Origin: a virus
IMG/VR virus record: IMGVR_UViG_3300044490_000259
Location: 1-37,253 of that record
DNA length: 37,253 nt
Direction: 5' to 3' (one strand)
The position numbers and the translations under genes were made by a program. Below are positions 2,538 through 36,123 of the stretch, piece by piece. Position 1 is the first letter of the stretch, and the number at the start of each line of letters is the position of its first letter. The notes under the pieces are model-generated. The model searched no databases. It was given only the letters and a program-made list of their open reading frames with translations, and was not told the DNA's origin.

Positions 2538-2557
2538 ATGCTTCGATTTGTAGAATC
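2538..2557 (+). promoter_or_regulatory. Late-promoter-like repeat, copy 1
   Basis: ATGCTTCGATTTGTAGAATC lies six bases before the small-terminase ATG and shares ATG--CGATTTGTAGA-TC with a copy at 4558-4577. TAGAAT (2551-2556) matches a minus-10 box at 5 of 6 positions, but no good minus-35 is seen, so an activator-dependent or phage-specific late promoter is a reasonable inference. Confidence 0.4.
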
Positions 2558-2562
2558 AGGGC

Positions 2563-3048
2563 ATGCCTGGTGCGCCGAAGTCCCGAGTCAAGCAGGCCGC
2601 CGCGAATCGAGGCCCGATCCAGCGCCGCAGCGTCGCCGCCTGGCAGGACGAGGTCCTCATCGACGCCCTGTGCGCAGACCTCGCCGTCGGGTGCTCCTAC
2701 GAGACCACCGGACTGGCCCACGGGCTCGGACCGTCGACCCTCGGCGGATGGGTCCGCGACGCCGTCGCCGCGTGCGACGCGCTCGCTGCCGACCCGGACA
2801 AGGACGTCGGCATGGACCCGGCGAAGCTCGCCGCTGCGGTGCGTCTAGTGCGCGCGCACGCTGGGGCGTCGCAGGAGCTGGAGCGAAAGCTCCACGCCGG
2901 CGAGGTGTGGGCCCTTGAGATCCTGTCTCGGCGCCACCGGCAGACGTGGGGCCGGAGCGACACGATCGCAATCGGTAGCGCGGATCCAGGGCGCGAGGTG
3001 GCCGTCCTGCTCGGGGCGCTCGCCGCGGTGGCGAAGCCGGACGCGTGA
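2563..3048 (+). CDS. terS: Terminase small subunit
   Basis: 161 residues from ATG 2563. The small terminase recognises the packaging site and recruits the large subunit. The N-terminal half is basic, with a helix-turn-helix-like stretch (about 40-70: LAVGCSYETTGLAHGLGPST then LGGWVR), which fits the family's DNA-binding domain. The second half is helical and could oligomerise (...LERKLHAGEVWALEILSRR, QTWGRSD). It overlaps the following large-terminase GTG by 4 nt. Position at the head of the late operon supports the call, although small terminases are too divergent to be certain by eye. Confidence 0.8.
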   Translation: MPGAPKSRVKQAAANRGPIQRRSVAAWQDEVLIDALCADLAVGCSYETTGLAHGLGPSTLGGWVRDAVAACDALAADPDKDVGMDPAKLAAAVRLVRAHAGASQELERKLHAGEVWALEILSRRHRQTWGRSDTIAIGSADPGREVAVLLGALAAVAKPDA

Positions 3049-22216: not shown

Positions 22217-24022
22217 CTAGGCGTCGAACCACCCCACCGGGAACCCCATGAGCCACGAGACCCAGCCTGGGTTCAGGTGGCTGCTGGTCGCCTGAAGCGC
22301 TCTGCGCACGCGCCCCCCGGCCAGCCACCGCCTCGGCCGCGCGAGGATGCGGCGCTTGTGATGGGGCGTGACGGACGACGTCGTAAGCCGAGCGACTACC
22401 TCACACAGCGGCTGAGCGTTGCGCTCCGCCGTGGCGTCGGAGGTCAGCCCCGAACGCCAGTCGGAGGCCCGCGGCGTGGGAACAGCACCGCGGGCGATGC
22501 GCTCCAGCGACGGGCGGTGGCCTGACGGGCGCCCCGCGTTCACACCGCCCTGCGATGAGCCGTAGGGCGTCGCCGTGGGAGTCGGCAACAGGCCGGACGC
22601 GATCGCGCCTTCGATGTCCATGTGCGTCGCATCCATGCTGCGCCCGGTCGCGTTCCGCGGAGTCGGTACTGAGCCGGCGATGCGGCCTCTGGCCACGGCG
22701 TCGTCCAGATTCGAGCGTCCGGAGTCCAGGCGCCGCGCCCCTACGGCCGCAGATGGCGCCCCACGTCGAGGGTCGCCCAGCCGTGCGATCGGAGACGGAA
22801 CCGATGTGCGGCCCCGGCCGCCATCCTCTCGCACGAAGTCTGTCAGACTCAACCCGGGGCTCGCCGCGCTCCCGGGTGTGCATCTCGATCCGGCCGCGTC
22901 GGCGTCGCTGGCCGTAGGCGTGGGCGCCGTGGTTCGCAGCGCCGCCCCCAAGAGGGTCTGGTTGCCGCGCTGGTATGTAGGCGACATGCGTTCGCCATCG
23001 GCAGCGGTCGGCGTGGGCACCACCCCGCGGCCGTACAGCCCTCGCACCGCTAGGTCGAGCGGCGTCAGGCCGGGCTCGGAGTTGGCCTCCTTGCCCCGCG
23101 CATAGCCCTGTGGGGTCGGGACCGGATGAAACGGTCCGGGCATCGCGTCGTGCCTCGTTCGTGCCGTCCGCGCATCGCAGAGCGAGCGTGTGGCGTACAG
23201 GCCGCCCGCGACGAAGGCGCCGCACGCCGGCACCTCTACGGCGTTGGCATCGCCGAAGAGATCGACCGTGACGGGCTCGCCGCCGAGGACGGTCCCCACG
23301 CATCGCCATCCGCGCGGCTCCGGCCGGTCGCGGAGCGCCCGTGCGACACACGCGCCCACGACCTCGGCCACCTGCGGCACGACCGCGTTGCCGAGAGCCT
23401 TCAGACGTGCGCGGCGCACGGCGGGGCGCATGTCGGCGCGGCTCACGGTGCGCGGCACGCCTGCGGGCTCCTTCGACCACAGGCCCCCACGATGTGCCCT
23501 GAACGCGCTCTCGACCACAGCGGGCGGCGCGAACACTCCGACGCGGCCGAGCCGGTGCGCGACGACGAACACACGGCTCCGGATGTGCAGCGCGCCAACG
23601 GCCATCGCGGACAGCGTGGTCCACTCCACGTCGTAGCCGAGCCCTGCAAGCCCCTCCACGACCGTAGCGAGTCCACGCTTGACCAGCGCGCCCACGTTCT
23701 CGATGACGACCACTGAGGGGCGTACGAGCCCGACCACGCGGAGCATCTCGAACCAGAGACCGGAGCGGGCGCCGGCGAGGCCTGCACCCTTTCCGGCGAG
23801 CGACACGTCCTGACACGGGAATCCGCCGCAGAGCACGTTGCAGACTGGCGGATCGGTCAGCGTCCGCACGTCGTCGTAAATGGTCGCGGCCGGCCACCGC
23901 ACGGCGAGCACGCGCCGGCAGAACGGGTCGGCCTCGCAGGCCCACGCGAGCTCGCAGCTCAGCGCGCGCTCCAGCCCGAGGTCGAGGCCGCCGATGCCGG
24001 AGAACACGGAGCCGAGCCTCAC
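22217..24022 (-). CDS. DNA (cytosine-5-)-methyltransferase with rearranged C-terminus
   Basis: 601 residues, GTG start at 24022. It transfers methyl from S-adenosylmethionine to C5 of cytosine. Motif I is VFSGIGGLDLGLE (6-18), motif IV with catalytic C70 is GGFPCQDVSLAG, motif VI is ENV (108-110), motif VIII is IRSRVFVVA, and motif IX/X is RLKALGNAVVP (206-216). Only about 50 residues separate VIII from IX, leaving little room for a target-recognition domain. The remaining 380 residues contain six PTP elements (such as VVPTPTAAD, LLPTPTATPYGSSQGG, AVPTPRASDW) and end NPGWVSWLMGFPVGWFDA. In related phage enzymes, to my knowledge, the PTP and GFPxGW sections usually lie before the LGN motif, so the order seems altered. 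A likely role is protection from host restriction. Confidence 0.88.
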   Translation of the reverse strand: MRLGSVFSGIGGLDLGLERALSCELAWACEADPFCRRVLAVRWPAATIYDDVRTLTDPPVCNVLCGGFPCQDVSLAGKGAGLAGARSGLWFEMLRVVGLVRPSVVVIENVGALVKRGLATVVEGLAGLGYDVEWTTLSAMAVGALHIRSRVFVVAHRLGRVGVFAPPAVVESAFRAHRGGLWSKEPAGVPRTVSRADMRPAVRRARLKALGNAVVPQVAEVVGACVARALRDRPEPRGWRCVGTVLGGEPVTVDLFGDANAVEVPACGAFVAGGLYATRSLCDARTARTRHDAMPGPFHPVPTPQGYARGKEANSEPGLTPLDLAVRGLYGRGVVPTPTAADGERMSPTYQRGNQTLLGAALRTTAPTPTASDADAAGSRCTPGSAASPGLSLTDFVREDGGRGRTSVPSPIARLGDPRRGAPSAAVGARRLDSGRSNLDDAVARGRIAGSVPTPRNATGRSMDATHMDIEGAIASGLLPTPTATPYGSSQGGVNAGRPSGHRPSLERIARGAVPTPRASDWRSGLTSDATAERNAQPLCEVVARLTTSSVTPHHKRRILARPRRWLAGGRVRRALQATSSHLNPGWVSWLMGFPVGWFDA

Positions 24023-26905: not shown

Positions 26906-28129
26906 TCACCGCGTCCCCGGCTCGAAGATGCCGAGCAGCGGCTGCACGGAGCCGTCGGCGAAGTGGGCGTCGAGCCACACGTCCCCGGTCGGTTCCGTGC
27001 CGGTCCACCCGTGTGGCCAGGTGCCGGCGGCGAGCAACTCGCGAACCCGGGCCTCTTCCTCCGCGTCGAGCAGCGAGACGGGCGGCCGGCCGGCGATGGC
27101 AGCTCCATCATTGACCCGCCGCTGGATGTCAAGCACCTGGTCGAGCGCCCACGCTCTGGCCTCCAAAGTGATCGGCCCGAGGCGCTGCTGGTTTTTGGAG
27201 AGAGTGCCGTCGGCGCGGGCCTCGCCACCCGGCTGTCGCAATCGCATGATCGCCTTGCGCAACTCGCGCCACAGCGGGCGCAACTCCTTGAGCGGCTCCA
27301 GGTATCTCCACGCCGGCCGCGCAATCACGTTGTCGAGCGCCGTGTCCTTTTCGGTCAGGGGGCAACCCACGCAGCCGGTCCGAGCATTGATCTCTTCGGC
27401 CTCCTCACCGCCATATGCGTCGGCCAAGGCTGCCGTCGGCCAGCCACCGAAGTCCGCGTGCGGAGCGTAGAACTTGAGCCAGTCCCAGACCTTGCAGACC
27501 CGCCAGTGCAGGATCGGGGCGAGCGTGTCGCAGAGCGCGTCGGGCAGCGTCTCCTGATACCAACCCTGCCCGCACTCGGCCCCGTCTTTGGAGCATGACA
27601 TCGCGATGCGACCGTCGCGGATCGCGCTCTCCCCCTGGCGGACACCGGTCAGCGTGAGCACCTTCTCCTGGCGCTCGCCGAAGATGCGTTTGAGCTCGGC
27701 TGCCATCGGGTCGACTTTGATCTGCCGGGTACACCATCGGAGCGTGTTGTTGTTCGGCGGGGGCACGCCGCGCCCGAGGATGTAGACGAGGAAACGCTTG
27801 TCGAGCGGGGCCCGCACGGTGCGCACGTCCACTCCGCGCTCTCGCAGCTTCGCCTGGATCTCGAGCGCCGATGCGTAGAGCGGCAGGAGTTCGAGCCCCG
27901 TGTCCGCGTAAAGCACAGTGAGCGTCTCCGGGTGCTGAATACGGCCAGCGTCGAGCAGGTGGAAGAGCAGTGTGAGCAGCGTCGTGCTGTCCTTCCCACC
28001 GCTCCAAGCGACGGCCCAGTGCCGATGTGTCGGGCCGTACGAGGCCAGCGAGGCCACGGTGAGATCGATGCTCTCTGGGATCTGCAAGCGGCTCGCAGTC
28101 CCGACAAACAGATCGTCCTGTCGCGTCAC
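26906..28129 (-). CDS. DndC-like / PAPS reductase family PP-loop protein
   Basis: 407 residues, GTG start at 28129 overlapping the upstream stop (GTGA). The PP-loop SGGKDST is at 43-49, followed by RWCTRQIKVDP (131-141), GVRQGESAIRD (162-172) and RTGCVGCPLTEKD (250-262) with C253-x-x-C256. This combination is seen in DndC and related PAPS-reductase-fold sulfur-transfer proteins, where the cysteines may hold an iron-sulfur cluster. DndC incorporates sulfur into the DNA backbone as phosphorothioate, but the partner genes dndA, B, D and E are not in this window. Other possibilities are sulfur modification of nucleic acid bases or a PAPS reductase-like enzyme. The fold call is strong; the reaction is inference. 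Confidence 0.75.
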   Translation of the reverse strand: MTRQDDLFVGTASRLQIPESIDLTVASLASYGPTHRHWAVAWSGGKDSTTLLTLLFHLLDAGRIQHPETLTVLYADTGLELLPLYASALEIQAKLRERGVDVRTVRAPLDKRFLVYILGRGVPPPNNNTLRWCTRQIKVDPMAAELKRIFGERQEKVLTLTGVRQGESAIRDGRIAMSCSKDGAECGQGWYQETLPDALCDTLAPILHWRVCKVWDWLKFYAPHADFGGWPTAALADAYGGEEAEEINARTGCVGCPLTEKDTALDNVIARPAWRYLEPLKELRPLWRELRKAIMRLRQPGGEARADGTLSKNQQRLGPITLEARAWALDQVLDIQRRVNDGAAIAGRPPVSLLDAEEEARVRELLAAGTWPHGWTGTEPTGDVWLDAHFADGSVQPLLGIFEPGTR

Positions 28130-29130
28130 TTCGCTCCCCCCAACGCCAGAAATCGTGACTCTGGAAACATGTCCCTCCTGATTTCGAGCGGCGTTCCCGT
28201 CTCCTCCACTCTCCGGCCGTCGATACACACCCAGCCGTCGTCCCATCCGGTGCAGCCTGCGCCGCTACACCGGGGACACGGCGGCCAGTCTCGCTCCGCC
28301 TCCACCGGCTCCGTCGGTCCCGGCGGAGCCTTCCCGACCGACAGACTCGCTGGTCCGCTCCGCCTGCCACGCGCGCTCGCCGGCATCGGTGGCAGGTCTG
28401 GAAGCGGCCCCTCGCCCGCGAGCTTGCGGAGGAACCCGAGGGACGGCGAACCGTTGCGGGTCTTGTCCACCGCCGCGCCGATGGCCCACCGGACGCGCTC
28501 GGCGCCGTGGGCCTGGAGCAGCTCCGCCACCGCGTCGACCACGGCGGGCGGAGGGAACAGGCCGGGAGCTCGACGCCCCATCCCGCCCTGGGTCCGCCAC
28601 CACGCATCGACCAGCCCCCCGACCTCGCCGGAATCGACAGGGGTTTCACGTGCGTGCGCGGGCGCGGCGGTGGCGGCGTCTGGAGAAGGTCTGGAGAAGG
28701 TCTGGATCTCCTTATTAGGGGGTGCAGGGGGGGTGTCCGCGTGGCGGACAAACATGTCCGTATTGCGGACATTCGTGTCCGCGTGGCGGACATCGGTGTC
28801 CGTATTGCGGACATCCGGACTGTCCGTATTGCGGACACTCTTGTCCGCGTGGCGGACATCAGGGGTCTCGCCGGTCCCCTCATGTCCGTCACCCGGACCG
28901 CCGGACGGAAGTCTCGCGACCCACCGCGCTCCGACCTTCTCCGCGTACCCCTCCGACACGACGTCCTCGAGGAGCTCGTACGCCGTCGACCGCGAGGTGC
29001 CCGTGAGCTGGGCGAGCCGTTGCGCGCCGGCGCCGTCGGGGTGGTGGTAGCGGACTGCGATCGCCATGAGCTTCCCGAGCGGCGCGAGGCCGCTGCGCAG
29101 GATTTCGCCGATGTCGGAGCCGAAGGACAC
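28126..29130 (-). CDS. Replication initiator-like protein containing the iteron array
   Basis: 334 residues, GTG start at 29130 with GGAGA upstream. The N-terminal winged-helix-like part includes LMAIAVRYHHPDGAGAQRLA then QLTGTSRSTAYELLEDVVSE (about 21-60). Residues 91-132 are heptad-like repeats DVRHADK-SVRNTDS-PDVRNTD-TDVRHAD-TNVRNTD-MFVRHAD, encoded by the 17-bp palindromes at 28734-28858. A helical DnaD-like part follows (VVDAVAELLQAHGAERVRWA), then a cysteine knuckle CPRCSGAGC near 285-293. In lambda, gene O similarly contains the origin iterons in its middle. The DNA-binding and origin roles are inferred from this analogy. Confidence 0.75.
   Translation of the reverse strand: MSFGSDIGEILRSGLAPLGKLMAIAVRYHHPDGAGAQRLAQLTGTSRSTAYELLEDVVSEGYAEKVGARWVARLPSGGPGDGHEGTGETPDVRHADKSVRNTDSPDVRNTDTDVRHADTNVRNTDMFVRHADTPPAPPNKEIQTFSRPSPDAATAAPAHARETPVDSGEVGGLVDAWWRTQGGMGRRAPGLFPPPAVVDAVAELLQAHGAERVRWAIGAAVDKTRNGSPSLGFLRKLAGEGPLPDLPPMPASARGRRSGPASLSVGKAPPGPTEPVEAERDWPPCPRCSGAGCTGWDDGWVCIDGRRVEETGTPLEIRRDMFPESRFLALGGAK
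28734..28858 (+). repeat. Iteron array: six 17-bp palindromes (putative replication origin)
   Basis: Six perfect copies of TGTCCG-N5-CGGACA start at 28734, 28755, 28776, 28797, 28821 and 28842. Spacers alternate: cgtgg, tattg, cgtgg, tattg, tattg, cgtgg. Start-to-start distances are 21, 21, 21, 24 and 21 bp, two helical turns apart, so all sites face one side of the DNA. A degenerate copy TGTCCGTCACCCGGAC is at 28883-28898. The lower-GC stretch CTCCTTATTAGGG lies just beside the array near 28708-28720. The array is translated in frame as the heptad repeats of the initiator. Likely role: binding sites for the initiator and the phage origin. Confidence 0.85.
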
Positions 29131-29178: not shown

Positions 29179-29808
29179 CTACGGCGGCCCCGTCGCCCGG
29201 ACCGCCGCCGGTCTAGGCTCTGGCGGCGTCGGCGCCACGAGCGCGTCCCAGGGCCCGCGCAGGGGCCATGACGGGGCGAGCCTCGCCACGGCCCGCTGCA
29301 GGACCGCCGCCCACCGCGCCTTGAGGGCTGCGAGCGGGTCGCGGACCGCCGCCATCGGGCGGCGAGGTGGAAACGCCGGGCTTGTCGCGGCCGGCCCGGC
29401 GGCGGCCTGCATGGCGGGGGGCGGGGAAGGAGAAGACTCCGCCCCCACGTGCGACGCCTGCACCGCGGGGGCCGTCTCGGGCTCCGCGGACGTCTCGATC
29501 TCGAACTGGTCGGGGTCGCGCCCTCGAAACTCGGGGGCGACCGCTGGGCCTGGGTAGGTGCGCTGCGGCCTGGTCGCGAGCTGCGCGTCCTCGGCGAGCG
29601 TCTCCCACCCGCCCTCGGCCTCCCCGCCCGCGCCGGCCCGCCGGTGGGCAGACCTTCGAGCCGGCGCGGGCTGGTCTGCGGCGGGCTGCTCGCGCCGCCG
29701 CGGGGAGTCGATGGCCTCTGCTCGCTCAGCGTCTCGAGCCGCGCGCTTCTCAGCGCGGGCGTCGAGCTCGGCGAGCCTGGCGCGGAGGCAGGCGAGGGCG
29801 TCGGTCAT
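29179..29808 (-). CDS. Low-complexity early protein, function unknown
   Basis: 209 residues from ATG 29808. The N-terminal 45 residues form a charged helix (LACLRARLAELDARAEKRAA); the rest is Pro/Ala/Arg-rich and mostly disordered, with a short helical segment near the end (LAALKARWAAVLQRAVARLA). It sits between the lipoprotein and the initiator in the leftward operon and overlaps the lipoprotein stop (ATGA). The reading frame is supported by gene coupling more than by recognisable sequence. Confidence 0.55.
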   Translation of the reverse strand: MTDALACLRARLAELDARAEKRAARDAERAEAIDSPRRREQPAADQPAPARRSAHRRAGAGGEAEGGWETLAEDAQLATRPQRTYPGPAVAPEFRGRDPDQFEIETSAEPETAPAVQASHVGAESSPSPPPAMQAAAGPAATSPAFPPRRPMAAVRDPLAALKARWAAVLQRAVARLAPSWPLRGPWDALVAPTPPEPRPAAVRATGPP

Positions 29809-30044
29809 CGGTCCGCCCCGTTGCGGCCGGGCGAGGGCATCGCCCCGACCGGTGCCACGCACTTGGGGCTGAACCGTCCATTGACCGCCGCGCCCACCAG
29901 CGGCTCGCGGCAACGGCCGTCGATGCACTCACCGCCGAAGTCGCCCGGCTTCGGGCCGCATCCGCCCAACGAGAGGGCGACTGCGAGGACGATGGGCTTG
30001 GCGGCGAGCGCGGGTGAGGGCGGGGTGGTCGAGTCGGCGTCCAT
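29805..30044 (-). CDS. Predicted lipoprotein (first gene of the leftward operon)
   Basis: 79 residues from ATG 30044, placed six bases after a TATCCT -10 box, so the message is probably leaderless. Hydrophobic PIVLAVALSLGGC ends in a lipobox (LGGC, C29), although the n-region is acidic. Further cysteines at 40, 45 and 62 could pair in the periplasm. Being first out of a repressor-controlled early promoter, it may act on superinfection or the host envelope; this is inference. The gene's position is secure, its function is not. Confidence 0.6.
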   Translation of the reverse strand: MDADSTTPPSPALAAKPIVLAVALSLGGCGPKPGDFGGECIDGRCREPLVGAAVNGRFSPKCVAPVGAMPSPGRNGADR

Positions 30045-30050
30045 GATCCA

Positions 30051-30080
30051 AGGATAGGCACACTATCCAAGGATTTTCAA
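30051..30080 (-). promoter_or_regulatory. Leftward early promoter, leaderless
   Basis: Minus-strand TTGAAA (30080-30075), 18-bp spacer, then TATCCT (30056-30051). ATG at 30044 is six bases after the -10, about where transcription should start, so the mRNA would have no leader. The operator GGATAG-N5-CTATCC covers the spacer and -10. The layout is the same as that of the rightward promoter at 31062-31090. Confidence 0.7.
30052..30068. promoter_or_regulatory. Operator GGATAG-N5-CTATCC, leftward promoter
   Basis: Perfect 6-bp inverted repeat with spacer GCACA overlapping the -10. ATCCAAGGAT also flanks it on both sides (30047-30056 and 30065-30074). Same arms as the operator at 31073-31089, so one repressor should bind both. 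Confidence 0.75.
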
Positions 30081-30173
30081 GGTGCACTTCCCGTCTTCTT
30101 GTTGCTTGAACGGTCTGGCATTCTCCCGTCGTGATCGCAGCGAGCCGGATCACCAAACAGGAAGGAGAGAAGA

Positions 30174-30431
30174 ATGAAGCGATGGATTGTTCTGGCCTTG
30201 CTACTCGCCGCTCCAGTAGCCGCAGGTGGAGCAAGCTATGACCCGGACGCCAACGTGAATGACGAAGGTGACGCGGGATGGTCCGACGAGGACGCCGGGC
30301 TTTATGAGCAGGTAGAGCAGCCCGTCAGTTGCAAGCAAGGTTGCCGGTGCGGGAACTCGTGCATCGACTGCTCAAAGACTTGTCGCAAGGGAAGCGGCAA
30401 GGGGTGCTCAACGATGGGCGTCGGACGGTAG
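30174..30431 (+). CDS. Secreted cysteine-rich small protein (possible lysogenic-conversion gene)
   Basis: 85 residues from ATG 30174 with a GAAGGAG ribosome-binding site. A Sec signal peptide (KRWIVLALLLAAPVAAGGA) is followed by an acidic linker and a C-terminal module with seven cysteines (53, 57, 59, 63, 66, 70, 78) reading CKQGCRCGNSCIDCSKTC. Similar cysteine motifs with a CGxxCI core occur in small secreted bacterial proteins of unknown role. It is oriented opposite to the leftward operon and lies between that operon's promoter and the regulators, a typical place for a gene expressed from the prophage. No promoter was firmly identified. Confidence 0.7.
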   Translation: MKRWIVLALLLAAPVAAGGASYDPDANVNDEGDAGWSDEDAGLYEQVEQPVSCKQGCRCGNSCIDCSKTCRKGSGKGCSTMGVGR

Positions 30432-30761
30432 CAGGTGGTGCAGGAGCAAACGGAAAGTGCAGGAGTAGCGAAAAACGGCAGGTGGTGCAGGTGGTGCAGG
30501 AACCACAGCCGACAACCGAACCGTCAACCCGCTGGCGTCTTGTCGGGGTGGTCGACCGCGACATCCGCAGTGGGGATGGTCCCGCCTCACGGTCACCTTC
30601 CGCGCAATCCACGCGCTTGGTGAACAGGCCACGAGCACGCCAGAGATTCAGCAGCAACGCGGGCGTCCGGGTGCTCATGGAAATGGGCTTGCAAGCCGTC
30701 GACGCCGCCCGGGACCATCCCCGTTTTCTTGGCCGTTGAAGCCCCAGCATCCGAGACGTAG
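30432..30761. other. 330-bp stretch without a confident gene
   Basis: Contains short direct repeats of GCAGGTGGTGCAGG near 30431-30445 and 30478-30502, and marginal open frames on both strands. One plus-strand frame (ending 30739) finishes with VRVLMEMGLQAVDAARDHPR, which looks protein-like but overlaps the cysteine-rich gene in its 5' part. Another (from about 30435) has WCRWCR. No start signal or family supports either. It may be a decayed gene or non-coding. Confidence 0.4.
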
Positions 30762-31046
30762 CTAACGGACGAGTGCCAGAAGCCGCTCCATCGCGTCGGT
30801 GGGGTGCTTCGCGCGGACCGCCTCGATTAGGCTGCGCTCCGACTCGGTCAGGGCGAACGCATCCATCAACTCGCCGGGCGACGTCCCAAGCCAGGCAGCC
30901 GCAAGGTAGACCTGCGCGGCCGTCCAGGGCCAGCCGTTTTCGAGCTGGCCCACTCGGCCGCGCGTCACGCCAAGCACCCGTGCGAGTTGCAGTTGAGTGC
31001 GACTCGCAGCCTCTCGGCGCGCGCGGACGGCACGGCCGATGAAAAT
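30762..31046 (-). CDS. XRE-family regulator, start uncertain
   Basis: About 94 residues. The helix-turn-helix lies in IGRAVRARREAAS, then RTQLQLARVLGVTRGRVGQL and ENGWPWTAAQVYLAA. The C-terminal part (ALTESERSLIEAVRAKHPTD) is helical. No ATG, GTG or TTG is available in frame between the domain and a distant ATG at 31334, and that long form would lie antisense over the divergent regulator. An ATT at 31046 (or ATC nearby) is the best-placed start. It is divergent from the regulator at 31098, so one of the two is probably the lysogeny repressor and the other its antagonist; which is which cannot be told. Confidence 0.6.
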   Translation of the reverse strand: MFIGRAVRARREAASRTQLQLARVLGVTRGRVGQLENGWPWTAAQVYLAAAWLGTSPGELMDAFALTESERSLIEAVRAKHPTDAMERLLALVR

Positions 31047-31061
31047 ATCGATAGGGTGCGG

Positions 31062-31090
31062 TTGACTTCTGTGGATAGCTTGCCTATCCT
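31062..31090 (+). promoter_or_regulatory. Rightward regulator promoter, leaderless
   Basis: TTGACT (31062-31067), exactly 17-bp spacer, TATCCT (31085-31090). The regulator ATG at 31098 is seven bases after the -10, so the transcript should begin at or next to the start codon. The -35 matches the consensus at 5 of 6, the -10 at 4 of 6. Confidence 0.75.
31073..31089. promoter_or_regulatory. Operator GGATAG-N5-CTATCC, rightward promoter
   Basis: Perfect 6-bp inverted repeat with spacer CTTGC, overlapping the promoter spacer and -10. Read on the promoter strand, both sites fit GGATAG-NNTGC-CTATCCTTG, identical except at two spacer bases. Confidence 0.78.
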
Positions 31091-31097
31091 TGCCGGT

Positions 31098-31355
31098 ATG
31101 GACAGCGACGAGGTCACCAGGATCAACCGTGCCGTCGGCCGGCGCATCTACGAGTGCCGGACCGCCAGCGGGTTGACCCAGGCGGATGTCGCCGTTGCCC
31201 TCAATTGCAAGCGGGCGAACATCGGCCACATCGAGGCCGGCCGACAGTCCGCGACGTTTGTGCAGTTGTGCGCGATTGCCGGGCTCCTTGGGGTCCCGGT
31301 CAATCAACTGTACGCCCCGGCCGCTCGCACTCACGGTGAGTCGGCCGCCGGGTAG
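31098..31355 (+). CDS. XRE-family regulator (probable repressor or Cro-like protein)
   Basis: 85 residues from ATG 31098. The helix-turn-helix is IYECRTASGLTQADVAVALN followed by CKRANIGHIEAGRQ, with the usual Q and recognition-helix layout, and then a short helical LCAIAGLLGVPVNQLY; no peptidase or dimerisation domain follows. It is transcribed from the operator-containing leaderless promoter and so is likely autoregulated. It heads the rightward early set. The start was chosen because no ribosome-binding site is needed given the promoter position, and the upstream in-frame sequence would precede the transcript. Confidence 0.75.
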   Translation: MDSDEVTRINRAVGRRIYECRTASGLTQADVAVALNCKRANIGHIEAGRQSATFVQLCAIAGLLGVPVNQLYAPAARTHGESAAG

Positions 31356-31788: not shown

Positions 31789-31997
31789 GCGCGCACAACT
31801 GGCACCACTACGAGGGCGAGGCCCGCGCCAAGGTGCTCCTCGAGCGGGTCCGCGAGTTGAGGGCCGGCACCGAGGAGGAGGCCGTCGCAGCCCTCGCCGA
31901 CATCATCGACGAGGGGGTCCTGGCGCAGCTCGTCTACATCGAGGCCCTCGACATCGCGAAGGGTGAGGGCGACGTGGCCGGGAGGTTCTCGGCATGA
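31785..31997 (+). CDS. Small helical early protein, function unknown
   Basis: 70 residues, GTG start at 31785 inside the previous stop. The sequence (SAHNWHHYEGEARAKVLLER, AALADIIDEGVLAQLVYIEA) is all-helical. No family recognised. Its stop overlaps the exonuclease ATG (ATGA), so translation is coupled to it. Confidence 0.65.
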   Translation: MSAHNWHHYEGEARAKVLLERVRELRAGTEEEAVAALADIIDEGVLAQLVYIEALDIAKGEGDVAGRFSA

Positions 31998-33055
31998 GCG
32001 CCGACATCGACTCCATCCCCGTCGGCGCCCGCGTCATCGACGCGGCCGGCCGGATGTTCGAGCGAACGGGCACGGCCTGGCGCGGGCTCACGCCGGCCGG
32101 CAAGCCGACGGGCGACGTCCTCACGGACAAGGTCATGCAGAAGCAGTCGCTCCGCGTCGTCGAGGGCCCGGCAGCCCGCGTCGCAGAGCCGGCCGTCGCC
32201 CCGCCGACTCTGCCCACCGGAATCGTCCACGGCCTCACCTTCGAGGAGTACAACGCCGACCCGGGCCTGCGCAGCTCGGCGCTCAAGGTGATGCGCCAGT
32301 CGCCGGCCCACTACCGGCATGCCCTGACGCACCCGAGGACGTCGAGTCCGATGCGGCTGGGGACCGCCGCGCACGTCGCGACTCTGGAGCCGGATCGATT
32401 CCGGCGGTCGTTCGCGGTGTGGGACCGCAAGACCGACACGGGCCGCAGTCAGCCCAGGTCAGGAGCCGCGTGGGTCGAGTTCGAGGCCGCGGCCGTTCGG
32501 CGCGGACAGACGGTCATCACGGAGGCGGAGCGCGACGGCGCGCTCGCCATCGCGGAGGCAGTGCGATCCAACCCGGACGCCGCCCGGTATCTCCGCGCGG
32601 GCGAGCCGGAGGTCTCGATGTTCTGGAATCGATGGGGCCGCCGCTGCAAGGGACGAGCGGACTGGACGACGATGCTGGACGGCGCCGACTGCGTGGTCGG
32701 GCTCAAGACAGCGCGAGCCGTCGAAGAGCGCGCGTTCGGCTCGCAGGCCTGGAAGCTCGGCTACCACATGCAGTGGTCGTTCTACCACGACGGGTGGCAG
32801 GCCATTCACCGACGGCCCCCCTTCATGGTGGAGATCGTCGTGGAGTCCGCCGAGCCCCACTGCGTGGCCGTCTACGAGCTCGGCGAGGACTGGCAGGACA
32901 AGGGCCGCGAGGACCTGGAGGCGTGCGCGGCGCGACTCGCCGAGTGCGAGCGCACCGGGCTGTGGCCCGGCCCGGTGGACACCGAGCGGCCTCTGCCGCT
33001 CCCGGCCTGGCTGGGCGAGACCTACGAGCTGACTGTGACGAGCGCGGAGGACTGA
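31994..33055 (+). CDS. RecE / exonuclease VIII-like 5'-3' exonuclease (PD-(D/E)XK)
   Basis: 353 residues from ATG 31994 with GGAGG eight bases upstream. The first 75 residues are a variable, Pro-rich region. The nuclease domain includes RSSALKVMRQSPAHYRHAL, LGTAAHVATLEP, CKGRADWTTM with D223, ADCVVGLKTA with D232 and K238, and YHMQWSFYHDGW with Q260 and Y264. This is the order seen in the RecE C-terminal nuclease. RecE-type enzymes chew 5' strands to expose single-stranded ends for annealing, enabling phage recombination. The following gene is the expected single-strand partner. Catalytic positions agree; substrate preference is inferred. Confidence 0.85.
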   Translation: MSADIDSIPVGARVIDAAGRMFERTGTAWRGLTPAGKPTGDVLTDKVMQKQSLRVVEGPAARVAEPAVAPPTLPTGIVHGLTFEEYNADPGLRSSALKVMRQSPAHYRHALTHPRTSSPMRLGTAAHVATLEPDRFRRSFAVWDRKTDTGRSQPRSGAAWVEFEAAAVRRGQTVITEAERDGALAIAEAVRSNPDAARYLRAGEPEVSMFWNRWGRRCKGRADWTTMLDGADCVVGLKTARAVEERAFGSQAWKLGYHMQWSFYHDGWQAIHRRPPFMVEIVVESAEPHCVAVYELGEDWQDKGREDLEACAARLAECERTGLWPGPVDTERPLPLPAWLGETYELTVTSAED

Positions 33056-34853: not shown

Positions 34854-35272
34854 CCGCGCGTCGGCTCGCCAGAGATGCCGACGTCTGCGAGGCGCTCGGT
34901 GTCAGCGAGCGCCACCTGCGCGCGCTCTGCGCCGCCGGCGACGCGGCCCGCATCCGCGCCCCCTATGGGCGCCCCGGGCGTTCTCGGCTCTGGACGGGCG
35001 ACGAGGTGGCGTGGTTGGCTTGGGCGACGGAGGTTCAGGCATGGCGAGCGTCGAGCAGCGTGGAGACGGCTGGCGCGTCCGATGGCGGACGCTCGGAGGA
35101 GAGCCGCGCTCCCGGCAATGCCCGGACCGCCGCGCGGCCCGCGAGCTCAAAGCGGAGATCGAGCACGCCCAGGCCCTCGGGCGCGACTGGACGGCAGAGG
35201 CTGAGGGACGCGTTGGCCCGGGCCTCGACGACCTCTTCGCCGACGCCCTCGTCGATGCCGGACGCCGGCTGA
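34850..35272 (+). CDS. Excisionase-like winged-helix protein overlapping integrase
   Basis: 140 residues, GTG 34850. The MerR/excisionase-type motif is RDADVCEALGVSERHLRALC, followed by GRSRLWTGDEVAWLAWATEV, all within the first 65 residues. Residues about 66-140 are Ser/Arg-rich and lie antiphase over the integrase gene, so they may not be functional. Location directly before int and the small DNA-binding fold support an excision or directionality factor role. The 232-nt overlap is much longer than the other overlaps here. Confidence 0.6.
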   Translation: MTARRLARDADVCEALGVSERHLRALCAAGDAARIRAPYGRPGRSRLWTGDEVAWLAWATEVQAWRASSSVETAGASDGGRSEESRAPGNARTAARPASSKRRSSTPRPSGATGRQRLRDALARASTTSSPTPSSMPDAG

Positions 35273-36123
35273 AGGCGTCGACCGTCCAGCGCACCGAGAC
35301 GGTCCTCGCGCTCTTCCTCTCCGCCCATCCGGACGCCACGCCGGCAGCGCTCACGGTGGAGACCCTCCACCGCTGGCACGGAACGCTGCTCGCTCGAGGA
35401 CTCGCACGGCGCACCGCAGCCTCGTACCTCTTCGAGGTCGCCCACGTCTGGCGCTGGGCCTACGACTCCGATCGGTGGGGCTCCATCGTGCCGCGCCCGC
35501 GCAAGGTGGATCCGGGCCCCGTGCCGCCCCCGGCGCACGTCCAGGCTCCGGCCCTCGCCGACATCGACCGCGCCATCGCCGCTGCGGCGGTGGGATCGAC
35601 CAGGCCTTCGTGGCCCAGACGCTTGATGCTCGTCGTCCGCTTCACGGGCTTGCGGGCCGGCCAGGCGTCGCGCCTGACCTGGACCGACGTCGACCTCGAC
35701 GCACGGCGCCTCGTCGTGCGTCCCGAGCTGGGCAAGAGCCGGCAGGAGCAGCGCGGGCGCGCGCTCCCCATCCACTCCGCGCTCGCCGCCGAGATGGCTG
35801 GCTGGGGGCGCCGGGAGGGGCTCGTCGTGGACCTCCGTGGGAAGCCCGTCGACCATGCGCTGATGGCGCGCATCTACCGGGACGCCGGCGTCGAGACGCA
35901 GCAGCCGTTCCACGGCATCCGCCACGCCGTCGCGACCCACATGCGCCGGGCCGGGGTCTCGGAGGACGTCGTGGGGCGCCTCCTCGGGCACGGCGCGACC
36001 GTCACCGGGGCTCACTACATCGACCCGGCCGCCCTCTGGCCTGCGATGGTCGATGCCATCGCCACGCTCCCAGAATTGGGAGCCGCCGGTGTGACGGATC
36101 TGGACGCTCGGCGTGCACGCTGA
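35041..36123 (+). CDS. int: Tyrosine integrase
   Basis: 360 residues from ATG 35041, seven bases after GGAGG. It integrates and excises the phage genome by tyrosine-recombinase chemistry. Catalytic candidates are R205 (TGLRAGQ), K232 (GKSRQ), H291-x-x-R294 (FHGIRHAVATH), H317 (LLGHGATV) and Y326 (AHYIDPA). The N-terminal 60 residues resemble an arm-binding domain (MASVEQRGDGWRVRWRTL) and the SAM-like core-binding domain follows. A GTG at 35011 is a possible longer start. Downstream is the putative attP. All active-site residues are present, so it should be functional. Confidence 0.93.
   Translation: MASVEQRGDGWRVRWRTLGGEPRSRQCPDRRAARELKAEIEHAQALGRDWTAEAEGRVGPGLDDLFADALVDAGRRLKASTVQRTETVLALFLSAHPDATPAALTVETLHRWHGTLLARGLARRTAASYLFEVAHVWRWAYDSDRWGSIVPRPRKVDPGPVPPPAHVQAPALADIDRAIAAAAVGSTRPSWPRRLMLVVRFTGLRAGQASRLTWTDVDLDARRLVVRPELGKSRQEQRGRALPIHSALAAEMAGWGRREGLVVDLRGKPVDHALMARIYRDAGVETQQPFHGIRHAVATHMRRAGVSEDVVGRLLGHGATVTGAHYIDPAALWPAMVDAIATLPELGAAGVTDLDARRAR

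Follow-up and report, generated by a model that had tools for sequence, protein, structure and literature searches.

Two promoters that face each other about 1 kb apart in a phage record share one palindromic operator across their -10 elements. This pair is, on balance, probably an immunity or early-control switch, in which a small XRE protein would repress both its own promoter and that of the left operon, with both messages being leaderless. The window (the whole stretch of DNA analysed, 37,253 bases with a GC content of 71.4%) is the IMG/VR record IMGVR_UViG_3300044490_000259. Its plus strand carries the terminase, portal, head protease and major head genes. Domain and family searches also identified a RecE/exonuclease VIII-like gene (phrog_412, 31994-33055, plus strand), which lies 3' of the XRE gene, and a tyrosine integrase (35011-36123, plus strand). 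The presence of the integrase indicates that the phage is temperate and, together with the structural genes and the RecE-like exonuclease, that the record represents all or most of a temperate phage. An XRE-type DNA-binding regulator and an integrase thus occur together in this phage.

The left promoter lies on the minus strand and consists of the -35 hexamer TTGAAA (30080-30075), a spacer of 18 bp, the -10 hexamer TATCCT (30056-30051) and the six bases TGGATC, followed directly by the ATG at 30044. The right promoter, on the plus strand, has TTGACT (31062-31067), a spacer of 17 bp, TATCCT (31085-31090) and the seven bases TGCCGGT before the ATG at 31098. All bases, spacings and strands given for both promoters in the first-pass annotation match the sequence. 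In a scan with a sigma70-like consensus, to which TATCCT is a 4/6 match in its -10 part and which may not be that of the host, these two were the only sites between 29.7 and 31.6 kb (shuffle mean 0.2). Extended to the whole 37-kb record, the scan returned three sites, two of which are this pair (shuffle mean 0.4 per half). The arrangement noted in the first-pass annotation is real and well described, and the pair of promoters is most likely functional.

A pattern search and a palindrome census placed the operator GGATAG-N5-CTATCC exactly at both promoters and nowhere else in the window, even when two mismatches were allowed. The left copy (GGATAG-GCACA-CTATCC in plus-strand reading, 30052-30068) overlaps the left -10 and the right copy (GGATAG-CTTGC-CTATCC, 31073-31089) the right -10, so that the palindrome covers part of both candidate regulated promoters, as had been claimed. 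Based on mononucleotide composition, 0.0007 copies are expected per window, and a backwards control pattern gave 0 matches. Among the perfect 6-N5-6 palindromes of the window, only four arms recur, one of them being the operator arm. The common block that was said to extend past the operator (GGATAG-NNTGC-CTATCCTTG) is present as well, with 19 of 21 nt identical between the inverted copies. Partial sites are also seen around the operators. An extra GATAG half-site (31050-31054), roughly two turns of the helix away from the right operator, precedes the right -35; of the 16 copies of GATAG/CTATC in the window, five are inside this module. At the left promoter (30046-30075), ATCC-TT-GGAT flanks the operator core on both sides, so that partial half-sites overlap there, which could give room to additional dimers.

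Next to the shared operator, the two promoters have in common a very short distance between -10 and start codon. Both strands were scanned for a TANNNT -10 (at least 4/6 matches) located 5-8 nt before the ATG of an ORF of 60 codons or more. Three sites, and no others, were found in the genome, namely the left promoter, the right promoter and the small-terminase gene (ATG at 2563; 2551-3048, plus strand), which heads the structural operon; allowing GTG and TTG starts added zero sites. Shuffled sequences gave a mean of 0.64 sites and a maximum of 3 in 100 shuffles. The head of the small-terminase gene reads TAGAAT-CAGGGC-ATG (2551-2565), with an in-frame TAG within the -10 and without the operator. 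None of these three ATGs is preceded by a Shine-Dalgarno (SD) sequence, while the majority of the other starts in the window have one, such as AAGGAGG before 31493 and AGGAAGGAG before 30174; the ribosome-binding sites claimed to be missing at both promoters are indeed absent. Moreover, an in-frame TAG is found inside both the left and the terminase promoters (seven codons before the ATG in the left case) with no start codon in between, making the ATG the first possible start at these two heads. For the XRE gene, in-frame GTG and TTG codons do exist upstream, all of them 5' of the called -10. The predicted RNA folds of the three 5' ends show nothing special in structure. Since the scan returned exactly three operon heads, all three look leaderless, and for the pair of promoters we infer leaderless messages from the 6 and 7 nt that separate -10 and ATG. 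A preference for 70S initiation, which would follow from this, rests on work on leaderless mRNAs in E. coli (summarised in PMC4633059).

To put this layout in perspective, about 130 other loci were taken as control DNA (about 1.95-1.99 Mb, mainly phage, prophage and host sequences, mostly of lower GC content). These contain 184 leaderless-like sites in 1,988 kb, a density similar to that of the window. In none of these control records do two such promoters have an inverted repeat of at least 6 bp over the -10 in common. Taken by itself, the leaderless layout is therefore evidence of moderate weight; the strong evidence is the shared operator.

The gene that starts directly at the right operator encodes an 85-aa XRE regulator (31098-31355, plus strand), the candidate repressor of both promoters. 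It contains an HTH_31 domain (PF13560, 1.6e-11) and matches HTH_3 (6e-9), phage regulator families (1e-6 to 1e-7) and the control-protein models of PADLOC (8e-6). The closest natural proteins with a solved structure are C.AhdI (4e-5) and C.BclI (8e-4). The similarity to C proteins is thus present, but many other XRE families score equally. A CI-type C-terminal domain is lacking, and the AlphaFold model (mean pLDDT of 54) is too poor for use.

The left operon (minus strand) starts with a gene for a 79-aa lipoprotein-like protein (29805-30044), with a hydrophobic stretch ending in LSLGGC upon reading of the sequence. The second gene (29179-29808) has a start that overlaps the preceding stop. The third (28126-29130) is initiator-like: a winged HTH (PF09339, 4.5e-6) occupies its N-terminal part and a repeat array lies within the gene behind it, but no family search named the gene an initiator. 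A palindrome search resolved this array into six copies of TGTCCG-N5-CGGACA (28734-28858), each 17 bp long and spaced by 21, 21, 21, 24 and 21 bp, which are candidate origin iterons. The array resembles an origin placed within the gene of its own initiator, as in phage lambda, where the origin lies in the initiator gene O. Candidate iterons and operator agree in their 6-N5-6 geometry. A similar array, with two exact copies plus a third close by, is carried by one other viral contig. Also on the minus strand are a PAPS-reductase/DndC-like gene (26906-28246), part of the left operon, and a C5-cytosine DNA methylase (22217-24022), probably its distal part, both assigned by family searches. Between the two promoters and divergent from the left one lies a gene for a small, secreted, Cys-rich protein (30174-30431) with a strong SD, for which no promoter was found.

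According to the first-pass annotation, one protein would switch the replication operon and the regulator together. A common operator does occur at both leaderless-type promoters, and the iteron array within a winged-HTH gene supports the label of replication operon. The head gene itself, however, is a lipoprotein-like one rather than one for replication, and only the third gene is initiator-like. In the mechanism proposed here, a dimer of the 85-aa XRE protein would bind the 17-bp palindrome, one dimer per palindrome. At each promoter, this dimer would lie over the -10 and some of the spacer and so block the RNA polymerase: on the right this would result in negative autoregulation, while on the left the same protein would shut off the leftward operon with its initiator-like and modification genes. 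Both messages would begin at the AUG or within 1-2 bases of it, and the head genes would be translated without an SD. The position of the palindrome, covering the -10, suggests repression. The XRE protein as the binder, repression over activation and the exact 5' ends are all what we infer from the sequence.

Database searches returned no second example of this arrangement. Scans of viral contigs with single proteins (XRE, initiator-like and exonuclease) found no relatives with the module. The operator patterns gave 0 matches in viral contigs, 0 in genome contigs (84,980 species) and 0 in 395 Gemmatimonadota genomes. In viral contigs, a looser operator-ATG pattern matched 89 stretches; among the 80 that were read, most are one conserved stretch in contigs of around 33-43% GC, and none has a second operator copy in the locus. 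One record of 72% GC has the operator-ATG layout once, before a 54-codon ORF, and shows no XRE match. As no relative with the module was found, the binding and the start sites remain predicted ones. A search with the terminase retrieved one relative (98.6%), but with only 5.7 kb of structural genes. With the PAPS reductase, many loci were retrieved, sharing with the window genes tested only a distant XRE match and fragments of the methylase, integrase, exonuclease and phrog_11517. Genome contigs were also queried with a composite of pieces of the window's terminase, portal, exonuclease and PAPS proteins and a pilin stretch intended for Myxococcota; all 80 loci kept matched through the PAPS part. 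The PAPS-reductase/DndC-like gene is 76% identical to a gene of a Gemmatimonadales MAG and about 60-68% to Bacteroidota genes, and the same MAG holds distant homologues of the phage's structural genes on one of its contigs. The style of the lipoprotein had suggested Myxococcota as the presumable host, which was not adopted because the nearest PAPS gene and the distant structural homologues sit in this Gemmatimonadales MAG.

The first-pass annotation speaks of both XRE proteins; the second one is a minus-strand ORF (30762-31052; PF01381, 3.9e-6), on which a different explanation of the locus builds. In a pair of the lambda type, the minus-strand protein would be the lysogenic repressor, expressed either with ATT or ATC as a rare start codon or by means of a divergent promoter. 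The plus-strand protein would be Cro-like, with both binding both operators at different affinities. The two XRE ORFs do diverge from a region of 46-60 bp containing one operator, the GATAG half-site at 31050-31054 adjoins the 5' end of the minus-strand ORF, and its codon use is coding-like (score of 0.18 vs 0.16-0.36 for the surrounding gene-like ORFs). The leaderless cI and cro of phage PY54 (see below) would be a precedent. However, no ATG, GTG or TTG is present near the HTH domain; the nearest in-frame one upstream is GTG 31229, inside the opposing XRE gene, and the frame upstream of about 31041 has no coding signal. ATT 31046 or ATC 31052 would give the protein a natural N-terminus. Sigma70-like scans of 29.7-31.6 kb and of the whole window found no promoter for it, and the intergenic region has one full operator only. 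The ORF would thus need an ATT or ATC start, or be damaged or hit by a sequence error. The claim of two XRE proteins is not upheld: this ORF does not qualify as an established second regulator, and we regard the lambda-type pair as unlikely.

Another explanation leaves the operator to a host regulator, which would couple both phage promoters to the physiology of the host. The XRE protein is a candidate binder of the palindrome, which leaves room for it. On the other hand, a small XRE protein that would suit the role is encoded right beside the operator, the layout of operator and ATG does not occur in the 395 Gemmatimonadota genomes (which may not represent the phylum of the host) and the genome contigs of the 84,980 species lack the full promoter pattern. 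We regard a host regulator as quite improbable. It might also be that the messages are not leaderless at all, with RNA starting upstream of the called -10, the closeness of TATCCT and ATG being coincidental and the palindrome serving promoters elsewhere. TATCCT is a modest match that is partly dictated by the operator arm, and shuffled sequences can reach three such sites. At both promoters, though, a -35 hexamer stands at 17 or 18 bp and no SD precedes the ATG, while the third operon head keeps the same -10-to-ATG distance without any operator. Such a coincidence seems to us as improbable as regulation by the host. The preferred reading remains the switch governed by the 85-aa XRE protein. 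A broader version is rather doubtful: every major operon (regulator, replication and late/packaging) might start leaderless and so bypass SD recognition, with internal genes mostly using an SD and one XRE protein gating two of the three through the operator in the -10.

The locus offers a compact and testable switch in an uncharacterised high-GC phage, with one operator sequence, two promoters and both transcription starts predicted. If all three heads are leaderless, the phage would be a handy case for leaderless initiation timing phage programmes or escaping ribosome competition. Proof of three leaderless heads and of one protein gating two of them would raise the standing of the finding.

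In lambda, likewise temperate, an XRE-type regulator works with operators placed at its own promoter as well as at that of an early operon, and in this the phage studied here resembles the CI/Cro system. It differs in that each promoter has a single operator where lambda has three, in lacking another repressor with a regular start and in the 85-aa protein having no CI-type C-terminal domain. With the C proteins of restriction-modification systems (C.AhdI, C.BclI and C.PvuII), it shares a small, single-domain XRE regulator. The C.PvuII-dependent transcript of such a controller is leaderless (PMC2997769). In contrast to these systems, no endonuclease was found among the neighbours of the XRE gene that were searched, and the methylase lies in the opposite operon, at a distance of 7 kb. 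Moreover, C.PvuII activates its own transcription, whereas here the palindrome covers the -10, suggesting repression. Mx8 imm, included for comparison, has an SD site.

In the immB switch of the temperate telomere phage PY54, cI and cro were found by RACE to be transcribed only as leaderless mRNAs starting from AUG, the Cro operator being one 16-bp palindrome; according to the same authors, lambda cI is likewise leaderless, and the related telomere phage N15 has related operators between its repressor genes and upstream of repA (PMC4488713). The likeness to PY54 and N15 thus lies in a leaderless regulator message and a palindromic operator that is also present at a replication gene (repA in N15). 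It is a likeness of design, seen here in a presumably unrelated phage. Two differences stand out: the leaderless pair of PY54 is cI and cro, whereas here it is the regulator and, at a distance of about 1 kb, a replication operon headed by a lipoprotein-like gene, and PY54 has a single operator where two near-identical ones are found here. Given the precedents of PY54 and N15, lambda cI and C.PvuII, the switch, for which no relative covering it was found, therefore repeats in an uncharacterised phage a design of a known kind.
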